Made by a program: the position numbers and the translations under genes. From contig CAMCWU010000007.1 of assembly GCA_945882675.1 (NCBI GenBank), forward strand, positions 1 to 34,635: a stretch of 34,635 nt of DNA. Reading direction: 5' to 3'. This document shows positions 13,905 to 19,216 of the stretch, piece by piece; position 1 is the stretch's first letter, and every line of letters begins with the position of its first letter. Source of the stretch: Klebsiella pneumoniae (lineage in GTDB: Bacteria > Myxococcota_A > UBA796 > GCA-2862545). The notes under the pieces were generated by a model. That model saw only the letters and a list, made by a program, of their open reading frames with translations, was not told where the DNA came from and did no database searches.

Positions 13905-15503
13905 TCAGCCGGCGACCTCCACCAGCAGCGCGAGCAGCTCCCGCTGCCCGAACGGCTTCTGCAGGTACCGCTGGCCCGACCGCGGCGGGTGGAACGCGCC
14001 CGAGATGAAGATGATCCGCCGCCCGAGCGCCGGCCAGCGCTCCGCTACGCGCGTCGCGAGCGCCTCTCCGGAGATGCCGGGCAGCCGGATATCCGTGATC
14101 ATGGCGTCGAACAGGTGCTCTTCCAGGGCCTCGAGCGCCTGCTCGGCCGACGCCACGGACCCGACCGTGTGGCCCAGCGCCTCCGCGAACTGTCGGATCA
14201 TCCCCGCGAGGAGCGGCTCGTCGTCCACCACGAGCAGCCGGAGCGGCCGCAGCGGCGGGATCGACGGCTCGTCCTCCGGCGGGGAGGCCGAGCGACCGGA
14301 AGCCGGCAGGTCGAGGTCGAACCGCGCGCCGCCGTCCGGGCGGTTGGCGCCGCGCAAAACCCCGCCGTGCTCGTCCACGATCCTCCACGCGATCGCGAGC
14401 CCCAGGCCCATGCCCCCCGCGTCCTGCCGATCGGTGACGAACGGCGTGAACATCATCTCGATGAGCCCCGGCGGGATGCCCGGCCCCTCGTCGTCGACCT
14501 GGATCACGACGCGCCCGAGCGCGCCGGGGCCCACCCGGATCGTGACGATACCCGCCAGCTTCATCGCCTGGGCCGCGTTCGCGACGAGGTTCACCAGCAC
14601 CTGCTCGATCGCCCCCCGGTCCACGTCCACCGTCAGCCCCGGTGGCCGCTCGACCAGCCGCATGCGCGCTGCGCCGCGCGCGTCCCGCGTGAGCTCGACG
14701 ACCGCGGCGTACAGGTCGCCGATTCGGCACGACTGCCGCTCTTCGGTGTTCGGCCGCGCGAACGTCTGGAGGTTCCTCACGATCCGGGCGATCCGCAGCA
14801 CGTGGGCGCGGAGCACCGCGGCCTGCTCGGCCGCAGCGCGCGGGTCGAACGAGGGGAGCGCGAGCTGGCGTTCGAGCAGCTCGAGCCGCAGAAGGAGCAC
14901 CGCGAGCGGGTTGTTGATCTCGTGCGCGACGCCGGCCGCCAGGTGGCCGATCCCGGCCAGGCGGTTCGCGTGCTGGAGCTCGACTTCGAGCGTGCGGCGC
15001 GCCGTCACATCCCGCATGACCACCAGGCTCACCGCGGCAGGTCCGGGGATCGGAGCGGCGTTCAACGAGACCCAGCGCTGGGACGCGAGCGGGAGCTCGG
15101 GGCTCGTCTCGTCGGCATAGCCCTGCTTCCGCCAGCGCGCGACGGTCTTGCGGACGTCTGGCGCGAACAGATCCTCGAGCAGCACGCCCGCCAGGCCCGC
15201 CGGATCTTGCGTCAGCGCGCGCGCAGCCGTGGCGTTGCAGGTGCTGATCCGACCGTCCCCCGCGATCGACAGCAGCATATCTGGGCTGTGGTCGTACAGC
15301 GCGCGATACCTCGCTTCCGACAGGGCGAGCTCGCGGCTCCGCACGTCCACCGTGTTCTCGAGGCTCGACAGGGCCTTGATCATGGCCATGCGGTCCTCGG
15401 CCGGGCCATGGCTCGCCTGCTGCTCGACGCGGCGGGCGAGCACGTCCACGACGCGCCTCAAAGCGGCGATCTCACCCTCGAGCTCCAGTACCCGGGATGT
15501 CAC
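13905..15503 (-). CDS. soluble PAS hybrid sensor histidine kinase with receiver domain
   Basis: The 532-residue protein has no membrane span. It starts with a coiled-coil-like helix (1-60), then a PAS domain (about 62-170). A HisKA domain follows with phospho-acceptor His194 in GVAHEINNPL, then a HATPase domain with N-box NLVANAAQA (305-313), DDEGPGIP and GGMGLGLAI. The C-terminal receiver domain has Asp427-Asp428, phospho-acceptor Asp471 (ITDIRLPG) and Lys516 (YLQKPF). The start is GTG 15503, overlapping the FIST stop (GTGA), so the two are translationally coupled. Without its own transmembrane sensor it probably responds to an internal cue or to the FIST partner. The receiver lacks an output domain, so phosphate must pass on or act as feedback. 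Confidence 0.94.
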   Translation of the reverse strand: MTSRVLELEGEIAALRRVVDVLARRVEQQASHGPAEDRMAMIKALSSLENTVDVRSRELALSEARYRALYDHSPDMLLSIAGDGRISTCNATAARALTQDPAGLAGVLLEDLFAPDVRKTVARWRKQGYADETSPELPLASQRWVSLNAAPIPGPAAVSLVVMRDVTARRTLEVELQHANRLAGIGHLAAGVAHEINNPLAVLLLRLELLERQLALPSFDPRAAAEQAAVLRAHVLRIARIVRNLQTFARPNTEERQSCRIGDLYAAVVELTRDARGAARMRLVERPPGLTVDVDRGAIEQVLVNLVANAAQAMKLAGIVTIRVGPGALGRVVIQVDDEGPGIPPGLIEMMFTPFVTDRQDAGGMGLGLAIAWRIVDEHGGVLRGANRPDGGARFDLDLPASGRSASPPEDEPSIPPLRPLRLLVVDDEPLLAGMIRQFAEALGHTVGSVASAEQALEALEEHLFDAMITDIRLPGISGEALATRVAERWPALGRRIIFISGAFHPPRSGQRYLQKPFGQRELLALLVEVAG

Positions 15504-16654
15504 GCGGGCTCACCGAACGCGAGGCCCGTCAGCGTCTCGTTGACCAGGAACGGCCCCAGGTGCTCGCCGTACGTGTCGAACCCCGCCACCCGGTGCGTCC
15601 CGCACATGGCTTCCACGAGCGATGCGCGCAGGCCGAGCGACGTCGCCGTCCGCGACCGCCCCATGCAGTGAAAGAGCAGGAGACCCGCCGGCGGTGTCGG
15701 GAGACCCCCGGTCGCCCGCGCGATCGCGGCCGTCGTCTCCGCCACGATGTCGCCGGGCTCCATCCACCGGAGCACCGTGCCCACGGCGACCGCCCCGCCC
15801 ATGAGCAACGAGTCGCCTTCGAGGCGCATCACCGCCCGCATATACCAGTCGCCGCCGTGCGCGAACCCGAGGCATGCGCTCCGCCGCTGGATCTCCGCCG
15901 GGAGCTCGTCGCGCGGGACGCCCATCAGCTCGGTGAGCCGATGGGCCGCCGGCCAGCCGTCGAGCTCGTGGACCAGCCGCCGCTGCGGCTCCGCGCCCGT
16001 GACGACCACGCGGCGCTCGGTGGGCCGGAAGTGGTGGGTCGCGAACGGGAGGAACGGGATCCCGGGATCGAGGAGTACGATCGCCGCTCCCCGGCCGGAC
16101 GACCGGCCGCCCACCGCCACCACCGTACGGTGGTACGCTTCCCCGTCCGCTGCCGCGCCGCCGACCATGGCCAGGTGGGGGGCGTGGGCGCCGAGGCTCG
16201 CCGCGAGCAGCTCGCCGCCACCCGAGAGCCCATCCGTGAGCGCGAGCAGCACGTGGCGCTCGCGCACGAGGCTCTCGAGCGTCTCTCCGATCGCCCCGGC
16301 CAGCCGGTCGAGCACGTCCCGCCCCGAGCGGAAGTGGAAGTCGTCGAGGTCCACCAGCACCGCCGCCGCCCGCGCCGGAGCGCCGAGCGCGATCGCCGAG
16401 ACCGTACCCCGCGTCGCGCCCGCTGGGGAGAGCTCGCCCGCCGTCGTGCAGCCGACGACCTGCGCCGCCGGGAACCGCTCGGACAACCGCGCCGACAGGG
16501 CCTCCACGCACAGGTGCGTCCCGCTGAAGAACAGGATCAGGCGCGGATCGGGGCCCGCCTGGCGCGCCAGATCGTCCGCGGCGCTGGCGACGTCGGCTGC
16601 GTCGGTGGCGGCGACCCGGAACGGGCCGGCGACGGCGTCGGTTCGGAGCGGCAT
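15500..16654 (-). CDS. FIST N/C-domain sensory protein
   Basis: The 384-residue soluble protein matches the FIST (F-box and intracellular signal transduction) architecture. The N-terminal half contains LILFFSGTH, QVVGCTTAGELSPAG, LALTDGLSGGGELL and MVGGAAADGEAYHRTVV. The C-terminal half contains LDGWPAAHRLTELMGVP, EGDSLLMGG and AAGLLLFHCMGR-like sequence (PPAGLLLFHCMGRS). FIST domains are proposed to bind small ligands such as amino acids and feed signalling proteins. ATG 16654 has GGAGG 5 bases upstream; the longer open frame beyond it lies opposite the next gene. It is the first gene of the block and overlaps the hybrid kinase start by four bases, which supports a sensor-kinase partnership. 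Confidence 0.92.
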   Translation of the reverse strand: MPLRTDAVAGPFRVAATDAADVASAADDLARQAGPDPRLILFFSGTHLCVEALSARLSERFPAAQVVGCTTAGELSPAGATRGTVSAIALGAPARAAAVLVDLDDFHFRSGRDVLDRLAGAIGETLESLVRERHVLLALTDGLSGGGELLAASLGAHAPHLAMVGGAAADGEAYHRTVVAVGGRSSGRGAAIVLLDPGIPFLPFATHHFRPTERRVVVTGAEPQRRLVHELDGWPAAHRLTELMGVPRDELPAEIQRRSACLGFAHGGDWYMRAVMRLEGDSLLMGGAVAVGTVLRWMEPGDIVAETTAAIARATGGLPTPPAGLLLFHCMGRSRTATSLGLRASLVEAMCGTHRVAGFDTYGEHLGPFLVNETLTGLAFGEPA

Positions 16655-16733
16655 GCGGCCTCCGGGGCGGTTCCGTGCAACGGTGGGGCTCCGTAACCCG
16701 GTTCCGGCCCGCACGAGTGGGGCACCGTCCAGG

Positions 16734-16762
16734 TTGCCTCTCGCCCGGATCCGTGGTTGCAT
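16734..16762 (+). promoter_or_regulatory. candidate promoter for the MYXO-CTERM/lipoprotein gene
   Basis: TTGCCT (16734-16739), a 17-bp spacer and TTGCAT (16757-16762) form a housekeeping-type promoter just before the gene at 16781. The same bases also contain GG (16747-16748), 10 bases and GC (16759-16760) with TTGCA at the -12, a partial sigma-54 pattern. The sigma-54 reading would put the transcript start on the Shine-Dalgarno, so the housekeeping reading is preferred. Confidence 0.4.
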
Positions 16763-16780
16763 GCGAGCTCGGGAGGCTCG

Positions 16781-19216
16781 ATGGGCATGCGCGCGCTGGG
16801 GATCGCACTGGTGGTGGGCTCGGGCCTCTTCCCTGGCCTCGCCCATGCGGGCATGCGCCAGGTCCTGCAGGAGAGCGGGCCGTACGTCCTTTCCGTGGAC
16901 GGCGCGGGCTCTGCGTTCACCTCTGCGCTGACGTGGCGGATCAACCGCCCCTCGGCGGGCGCGACGGTCCGCACCGTCTACGCCACCGTGTCGTCCGCGG
17001 CGTTCACGGGCGATCCGGGCGGGAACTGCCTCGTCATCGACGGGATCGCGGTCAAGATGCCGGATGTCGTCGTCGACAGCGGGTCGGGCGTGTACACGCG
17101 CTACGGCGACGTGACGGCCGCCCTCGCCCCGTACCTGGAGGCGCTGCCGTCGGGCAACGCGACCATCCCGTTCGTGGAGTGCGGGGCCACCGGCGCGAAC
17201 GACGGGAGCGGCCTGCTGATCGTGTGGGAGGACCGGGCGTTCCCGGACGCGGCGGTCGCGCTCGCGTTCGGCAGCGAGCTCACCGGCCTCGATCCCACGC
17301 TCACGCTCGTGACGGACCCGCTGGACACCAGCGAGCCCGACTTCAAGGTAGAGGTCGGGCTCGGGATCTCGTACTCGACCGGCTCGATCTACGGGCAGTC
17401 CTCGGACATGGTCGTCAACGGTACGCTCGTCGACCAGGACGCCGGCGGCTTCGACGATGGCGACCTCGCCAACGGCGGCCTGTACACGCTCGGGGGCGAT
17501 GGCGACGGTCCGGACTCCGAGCGCTACGACGTGACGTCGCTCGTCTCCAACGGCGACACCCAGATCGAGGCCATCCTCCAGGGAGACACCTTCGACGACT
17601 ATGCCGTCGTGATGTGGCTGTGGGGCGTCGGCATCACCGTGCCGTGCCCGGACGCGAACGGAGACGGCATCATCGACTCGTGCAAGGTCATCGTGGATCT
17701 CCTCTCGCCGAAGGTCGGGCCGACCGCGGGCGGGAACGCGGTGGACGTCCTCGGGGAGGGCTTCGATCCGAGCTGCGTGACCTGGCTCGGCGGCGTGGAG
17801 GCCCCGACGACGTTCGTGGACGAGACGCACCTGATCGCGACGCCGCCGGCCCACGCCGCGGGCATCGTGGACGTGGAGGTCGTCTGCGCGTCTGCCAACG
17901 CGGATCTCGCCGGTGGATACTCCTGGTTCGACGAGGCGCCGATCACCCCGGCCCCGCCCGACGTCGTGGCCGCGCTCCCGTACACGGTGCTCGTCGCGGG
18001 TGGCGACTCCGTGACCATCCAGGGGCTCGGGTTCGACGCCGGTGCGATCGTCCGGGTGGACGGGGTGGACGCCGCGGCCACCTGGGTCGACAGCACGCAG
18101 ATCACCGTGGTGGCGCCGCCGCACGCCGCCGGGAACGCCACGGTAGAGGTCGTCAACGGAGACGGCACGTCGGACGCCCTGTTCGCCGCGCTCTTGTACG
18201 TCGAGCCGGACGCCAGCGGTGGCATCCCGGGCGCGGAGGACACCGGCACCCCCGCCGTGGAGGCTCCGGAGCCCGGCAAGGGCGGCTGCAGCACCTCTCC
18301 GGGTGGGAGCCGGCTCGCGCTGCTCGCTCCCCTCCTGCTCCTCGCGCTGCGTCGTCGGCGAGGGGTGGCGCTGGGCGCGCTCGCGGCCGCCGCGGGGTGC
18401 AGCGAGTACGAGCTCCAGGGCGCCGCGCCCGCCCCCGAGACCGTCCCGGAAGGCCAGGAGCTCCCCCCGGTCGCGCTGACCGGCCCGCCCGCCAGCACCG
18501 TGCGGGGCGTCGCCGCTTCGCTCGACGGCACCAGCTCCCACGACCCGGACGGGAGCACCACCGCGCTGTCCTGGGCCTGGGAGATCGCGGCCTCCCCGGC
18601 GGGCGCGCAGCCTGTGCTCCTCGGCGCGGACACGGCCACGCCCACGCTCGCATCCGACACGATCGGCGTGTACGTCGTGTCGCTGCGCGTGACGGACGCT
18701 CAGGGCCTCGAGTCCACGAACCCCGCCGCCCAGGCGGTAGAAGTGCAGCCGTGGCGCGACCTGGAGGTCACGCTGGCCTGGGACGCGGCCGCGGACCTGG
18801 ATCTGCACCTGATCCAGCCCGGCGGCGGCTACTTCGGCGCCGGCGACTGCTTCTCCGGCAACCCGCGGCCCGACTGGGGGATCGTAGGGTCGAGCGTGGA
18901 CGACCCCGAGCTCGACGCGGACGACGACGCCGCGCTCGCCGGCCCGCACCAGGAGGCCATCACGCTCGCGGTGCCGCCCGAAGGCCCGCTCTCGGTCGTG
19001 GTCGTCTACTGGCGCGATCGCGGGGCCGGCGGGGCGGTGGATGCCACGCTCACGCTGCGCGGGGAAGGCACCGTCATCGCGGAGTTCCCGGTGACCCTCG
19101 ACGTCGTCGGCGCGGCGTCGCTCGCGGGTGCCGTGGACTGGACGACCCTCGGCTGGATCGCGGACGGGACCGCGACCACGCACGACGCCCTGGGCGGCCC
19201 CCCGTTCGACGAGTGA
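16781..19216 (+). CDS. secreted IPT/TIG protein with internal MYXO-CTERM-like tail fused to a lipoprotein
   Basis: The continuous 811-codon frame reads like two proteins joined. Residues 1-25 are a signal peptide (ALGIALVVGSGLFPGLAHAG). A DUF3344-like beta domain follows, ending near RYDVTSLVSNGDTQIE, then a DANGDGIID calcium-type loop. Two IPT/TIG domains come next, about 310-370 and 400-475. At 501-525 there is a MYXO-CTERM-like signal: GGCSTSP, a hydrophobic helix and four arginines. Instead of stopping, the frame continues into GVALGALAAAAGC (529-540), a lipoprotein signal with lipobox Cys540. A PKD-like domain and a DLDLHLIQPGG-type domain follow, ending at 811. GGGAGG precedes ATG 16781; ATG 16787 is an alternative. 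A second start at GTG 18365 would yield a separate lipoprotein. Confidence 0.85.
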   Translation: MGMRALGIALVVGSGLFPGLAHAGMRQVLQESGPYVLSVDGAGSAFTSALTWRINRPSAGATVRTVYATVSSAAFTGDPGGNCLVIDGIAVKMPDVVVDSGSGVYTRYGDVTAALAPYLEALPSGNATIPFVECGATGANDGSGLLIVWEDRAFPDAAVALAFGSELTGLDPTLTLVTDPLDTSEPDFKVEVGLGISYSTGSIYGQSSDMVVNGTLVDQDAGGFDDGDLANGGLYTLGGDGDGPDSERYDVTSLVSNGDTQIEAILQGDTFDDYAVVMWLWGVGITVPCPDANGDGIIDSCKVIVDLLSPKVGPTAGGNAVDVLGEGFDPSCVTWLGGVEAPTTFVDETHLIATPPAHAAGIVDVEVVCASANADLAGGYSWFDEAPITPAPPDVVAALPYTVLVAGGDSVTIQGLGFDAGAIVRVDGVDAAATWVDSTQITVVAPPHAAGNATVEVVNGDGTSDALFAALLYVEPDASGGIPGAEDTGTPAVEAPEPGKGGCSTSPGGSRLALLAPLLLLALRRRRGVALGALAAAAGCSEYELQGAAPAPETVPEGQELPPVALTGPPASTVRGVAASLDGTSSHDPDGSTTALSWAWEIAASPAGAQPVLLGADTATPTLASDTIGVYVVSLRVTDAQGLESTNPAAQAVEVQPWRDLEVTLAWDAAADLDLHLIQPGGGYFGAGDCFSGNPRPDWGIVGSSVDDPELDADDDAALAGPHQEAITLAVPPEGPLSVVVVYWRDRGAGGAVDATLTLRGEGTVIAEFPVTLDVVGAASLAGAVDWTTLGWIADGTATTHDALGGPPFDE
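18365..19216 (+). CDS. possible separate lipoprotein ORF within the fused frame
   Basis: A GTG at 18365, in the same frame as the gene above, would give a 283-residue lipoprotein starting MALGALAAAAGCSEYELQG with lipobox AAGC. It contains a PKD-like domain (SLDGTSSHDPDGS) and a C-terminal domain with LAWDAAADLDLHLIQPGGG, a pattern common in secreted proteins. The preceding AGGGG is too close to be an ideal ribosome site, and the signal lacks basic residues unless initiation occurs at a CTG at 18347 (giving RRRR). It is listed because the sequence strongly suggests an ancestral or actual second protein. Confidence 0.35.
   Translation: MALGALAAAAGCSEYELQGAAPAPETVPEGQELPPVALTGPPASTVRGVAASLDGTSSHDPDGSTTALSWAWEIAASPAGAQPVLLGADTATPTLASDTIGVYVVSLRVTDAQGLESTNPAAQAVEVQPWRDLEVTLAWDAAADLDLHLIQPGGGYFGAGDCFSGNPRPDWGIVGSSVDDPELDADDDAALAGPHQEAITLAVPPEGPLSVVVVYWRDRGAGGAVDATLTLRGEGTVIAEFPVTLDVVGAASLAGAVDWTTLGWIADGTATTHDALGGPPFDE

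Follow-up and report, generated by a model that had tools for sequence, protein, structure and literature searches.

A MYXO-CTERM sorting tail belongs at the C terminus of a protein and a lipoprotein signal at the N terminus; at this locus the two meet in the middle of a single open reading frame. Does the frame encode one protein, a precursor of two, or two genes joined in error? The window is the whole stretch of DNA analysed (34,635 nucleotides), and the features of the fused frame all lie on its plus strand.

A sorting tail runs into a lipoprotein signal in one frame

The initial annotation had read a MYXO-CTERM tail passing straight into a lipoprotein signal within one frame. This is confirmed: positions 16,781–19,216 are free of internal stops and encode 811 residues followed by TGA. 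The protein begins with a signal peptide, MGMRALGIALVVGSGLFPGLAHA (residues 1–23; 16,781–16,849), with a predicted cut between AHA and G. The domain that follows (about residues 24–298; 16,850–17,674) found no match in a Pfam search and has a relative in a protein of genome G047 (contig C239), to which residues 11–298 are 43% identical. That relative sits inside a much longer frame of 1,478 residues (L005). Two TIG/IPT domains come next (about residues 304–465; 17,690–18,175; PF01833, E=4.7e-23, two stretches, the better being 397–465), and a linker connects them to the internal MYXO-CTERM tail, GGCSTSPGGSRLALLAPLLLLALRRRR (residues 501–527; 18,281–18,361).

The tail consists of a GGC motif, a hydrophobic helix and RRRR. 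Cys503 (18,287–18,289) occupies the position of the invariant MYXO-CTERM cysteine and is the putative site of lipidation and myxosortase action, the role proposed for the family's cysteine in published work (PMC11980579). The arginines R524–R527 (18,350–18,361) end the tail and may also act as the basic n-region of the next signal. The lipoprotein signal GVALGALAAAAGC, which includes Cys540, abuts the tail without a gap. Its h-region, GVALGALAAAAG (residues 528–539; 18,362–18,397), reaches a maximum 10-residue hydropathy of 2.22. Cys540 (18,398–18,400), the candidate site for Lgt and signal peptidase II, aligns with the lipobox cysteine of L004, L006 and L036. A PKD-like domain follows (residues 562–646; 18,464–18,718; PF18911 at E=3.7e-5, below the gathering score, and 6nz0 at E=6e-6). 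The C-terminal domain (residues 647–811; 18,719–19,213) is conserved in orthologues from genomes G009 and G018; it has no Pfam match in the window and a weak PPC match in an orthologue.

Measured against family criteria, both signals are well formed and out of place. Scanned alone, the tail scores 21.7 bits against TIGR03901 (cut-off 20), and 17.8 bits within a genome-wide search; it has the invariant cysteine, hydrophobic helix and arginine-rich end of the family, and 284 residues follow it. The lipoprotein signal has a hydrophobic stretch ending in Cys540, here as AAGC, and starts at residue 524–528 of 811. The only basic residues before its h-region are those of the tail's RRRR.

The GC content at codon position 3 is 0.80–1.00 throughout, in the same frame on either side of the joint and across it. 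This unbroken pattern rejects a frame-shift artefact between the halves. A long antisense frame (15,500–19,183) is attributed to the high GC content, since the codon-position pattern fits the plus strand. The open joint is by itself weak evidence because the DNA is GC-rich, and the 160 bases around the joint contain no stop in any of the three frames. Stronger evidence than openness comes from the separate alignments of the G009 orthologues, which match the two halves independently up to the joint, at 41% identity over residues 304–528 and 43% over residues 523–810.

The orthologues are two overlapping genes

Orthologues of the C-terminal half were found at three loci in two genomes, both of one genus of the same family (G009:C66, G018:C482 and G018:C450). 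At all three, a MYXO-CTERM-like gene lies just upstream, ending in RRRS or RRRR and then TGA, and the lipoprotein gene starts in another frame, at the ATG of a four-base ATGA overlap. The initial annotation had named a stop or a change of frame between the halves in orthologues as evidence against its reading, and that is the arrangement seen here. The single frame of the window is thus derived, not ancestral. Set beside these genes, the window is shown to have lost the stop and the start and to have merged the frames, with both sorting signals intact. The DNA around the joint is too diverged for the exact ancestral base change to be reconstructed. No other window gene matches the surroundings of the two orthologue loci that were compared. 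The G047 relative covers the N-terminal domain whereas the G009 and G018 genes match only from residue 302, a pattern read as a domain swap.

Tail-to-head pairs of MYXO-CTERM and lipoprotein-like genes recur in the family. At four further loci (L139, L157, L232 and L237) the start of a lipoprotein-like frame overlaps the stop of a terminal MYXO-CTERM gene or lies almost beside it.

The split orthologues lend some weight to a different explanation, in which the organism has two genes and one base at the joint is wrong in a draft assembly. A single draft genome (81% complete, 377 contigs) shows the window fusion; no other full-length match, such as from a second genome of the species, appeared in the genus, family and order searches or in a contig scan. 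Within 18,300–18,399, exactly one single-base substitution suffices to create a stop right after the tail and its arginine cluster. However, no single-base insertion or deletion in that interval yields a stop just after the arginines, and a lone stop would leave the GTG at 18,365 as the start, giving a signal without a basic n-region. The frames of the orthologues differ by the ATGA overlap, which is more than a point change away from the window, and a point error alone would not restore that overlap. Three other fusions of the same kind are found in this genome, two of which are also fused in other genera. We consider an assembly artefact unlikely.

The initial annotation had placed a CTG (18,347–18,349) and a GTG (18,365–18,367) in frame, correctly, and had suggested that a second start at either could give two proteins from one frame. 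The CTG would yield MRRRRGVALGALAAAAGC, a well-formed lipoprotein signal. The upstream protein would still have no stop after its tail, the signal from the GTG contains no basic residue, and neither codon has a ribosome-binding motif at the usual distance upstream. Hence, a second start is disfavoured, and we regard it as very improbable.

Tails continue into signals elsewhere in the genome and family

Among the 30 best MYXO-CTERM tails of the window's genome, 27 end within 15 residues; the other three, in the window and on contigs C30 and C56, continue into a signal peptide. A fourth case, on contig C51 (L088:1–183, minus strand, G000), has a tail that continues into RRRRVAAVAAGLVAAPLAGAQEVNSQRF until the contig ends; it resembles a barrel-type fusion. 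Two more, weak, tail hits extend by 38 and 59 residues that contain no signal. Contig C226 of the same genome (L092:2443–3588, minus strand) carries a degenerate MYXO-CTERM-like cysteine motif without an arginine cluster, with a lipobox (GCATTAAPPWLGLLALLLVAC) at the end of its single hydrophobic helix, between two exported domains.

Another 20 genomes of the family gave 108 best tails, of which 106 are terminal; the two internal ones (G002:C4 and G012:C289) both directly precede a signal-like stretch. In G002:C4 (L351:2446–4956, minus strand) the protein beyond the tail resembles TraB (NF033763, E=8e-55, below its cut-off) and has an OmpA domain. With the hydrophobicity threshold taken from the weakest of the six cases, stretches at least as hydrophobic make up 14% of the 25-residue windows of the fused proteins (387/2,742) and turn up in 10 of the 78 open in-frame sequences that follow the stop of a terminal tail. 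Given these backgrounds, and subject to that choice of threshold, a signal-like stretch after all six internal tails is not expected by chance.

In the C30 fusion (L098:98–3910, minus strand, G000; relatives L336–L338), a MYXO-CTERM tail is followed by a signal peptide and a 179-residue C-terminal part. The fusion is also a single frame in G001, G014 and G008, where both signals are kept, and its halves are separate in G010, G012 and G019.

An order-wide fusion keeps both signals

In the C56 protein (870 residues; L099:1387–3996, G000; relatives L100–L129), a MYXO-CTERM tail and a signal peptide link an MXAN_2561-like part to one that resembles the MXAN_2562 beta-barrel family (E=6e-5 and 2.5e-20, respectively, both below the curated cut-offs). 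The literature searched contained no papers on MXAN_2561 and MXAN_2562. Most of 63 genomes of the order carry the fusion as a single open frame. A script recovered the cysteine, first helix, basic cluster, second hydrophobic stretch and A-x-A-type site in 53 of 55 distinct C56-type sequences; the remaining two keep all these features, judged by eye. The halves belong to two genes in sister groups of the class, where three adjacent pairs overlap by ATGA (L305, L307 and L313), and within the order one genus (g20) has the halves split and adjacent. Relatives of the fusion are also carried by L242 and L244, titled as Rhodobacterales and Klebsiella pneumoniae metagenome-assembled genomes; for this reason both titles are probably wrong.

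Selection for both cuts would predict that both signals persist long after fusion. The order-wide presence of the cysteine motif and the cleavage site in mid-protein suggests that both are used. The same conservation bears on a further alternative, that the window fusion is real and is not cut twice: the chain might stay as an uncut two-helix hairpin, be cut at the lipoprotein signal only, or come from a recent, damaged allele. Conservation in the other fusions would also be compatible with an uncut membrane hairpin, processing of the window protein is read from its signals, and its fusion is unique to one genome in the sample; for MXAN_5598, too, the role of internal tags was put forward as a proposal (PMC11980579). 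Against this, the ancient C56 fusion family keeps an invariant cysteine and Ala-x-Ala sites that a plain hairpin would not need. We judge this alternative unlikely.

A putative precursor of two anchored proteins

In lipoprotein signals the basic end stays inside, and signal peptidase II cuts before the lipidated cysteine. Work on myxosortase places the MYXO-CTERM tail as an anchor in the inner membrane with its arginines inside; lipidation of the cysteine is proposed, and the cut by MrtX falls distal to it (PMC11980579). MrtX is reported in that study to be active in E. coli. We think it moderately probable that the window frame is a tail-to-head fusion that still encodes two sorted, separately anchored proteins. 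The N-terminal signal would take the precursor into the Sec pathway, and the MYXO-CTERM helix would cross the inner membrane, leaving RRRR on the cytoplasmic side. These arginines would double as the n-region of the next helix, which would lead the chain back out as a hairpin. Two signals joined at the arginines form a legal hairpin, so both enzymes could act. Cys503 would be lipidated and a myxosortase would cut behind it, and Cys540 would be lipidated by Lgt, with signal peptidase II cutting before it. A hairpin peptide of ~36 residues (504–539) would be discarded. The products, in equal amounts, would be a TIG-domain surface protein and a PKD-domain lipoprotein, each anchored.

Of 21 genomes in the family, 19, among them one of the same genus, have a myxosortase core domain that scores over the cut-off. 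The window's assembly, 81% complete, reaches 40.9 bits against a cut-off of 100; it yields no myxosortase over the cut-off and only one weak CPBP protein. That CPBP protein, on contig C150, falls below every cut-off and was rejected as a myxosortase.

The initial annotation had offered a true fusion cut near Cys503 and lipidated at Cys540. That idea gains strong support from the three parallel cases in the genome and from the 55 of 55 C56-type sequences that keep both signals; the orthologues are split, and the cuts and lipidations are predictions from the sequence. Its interpretation as a whole is partly supported. The wider pattern of tail-to-signal fusions is robust; the window case on its own comes from a single draft genome. 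Extended to the order, the same reading would make the joint a general device, in which the tail and the next signal share an arginine cluster and form an excisable hairpin, with cuts by myxosortase and by signal peptidase I or II. Such joints would arise repeatedly from ATGA-overlapping gene pairs and fix their ratio at 1:1. We regard this extension as evenly balanced between true and false.

Relation to known systems

An internal MYXO-CTERM motif was published in 2025 for MXAN_5598 of Myxococcus xanthus (PMC11980579), which makes the "new processing scheme" of the initial annotation too strong a phrase. As in MXAN_5598, the window protein has a mid-protein MYXO-CTERM with exported-protein domains on both sides; MXAN_5598 is likewise a proposed fusion of two genes whose N-terminal part is proposed to be processed and anchored (PMC11980579). 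The C-terminal part of MXAN_5598 is an outer-membrane beta-barrel with an OmpA domain, whereas the window tail enters a lipoprotein signal directly and is followed by a lipobox and a PKD-like domain. The window fusion, unlike MXAN_5598, has split orthologues in hand.

The TraA and TraB open reading frames of M. xanthus overlap (PMC11980579), and here too a MYXO-CTERM gene overlaps the gene of an exported partner, an arrangement from which such fusions would arise. TraA and TraB are, however, two unfused genes, and TraB is an outer-membrane protein, not a lipoprotein. The G002:C4 protein looks like a fused counterpart of this overlapping arrangement. Relatives of MXAN_2561 and MXAN_2562 (NF045522 and NF040596) are joined in C56 by the same tail-to-signal joint as in the window, but these are other protein families, and their fusion is order-wide whereas that of the window was seen once. 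Bacterial precursors cut into two separately anchored proteins have rarely been described. The Bradyrhizobium fbcH product, cytochrome b/c1, is made as a single precursor and cut at an internal signal sequence to give two membrane proteins; in contrast to the window protein it involves no sorting tag or lipidation, and the proteins are unrelated.

Four features are new here: a tail that passes directly into a lipoprotein signal, the ATGA-split orthologues, the recurrence within one genome and the order-wide fusion with both signals retained; descriptions of them were not found in the literature searched, most subscription journals lying outside it. Should both cuts occur, a sorting tag can act inside a protein to separate two products, and overlapping genes gain a simple route to a fused, equal-ratio product. 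Annotation pipelines that allow a MYXO-CTERM tail nowhere but at the C terminus, or restrict signal peptides to the N terminus, would then miss such proteins.
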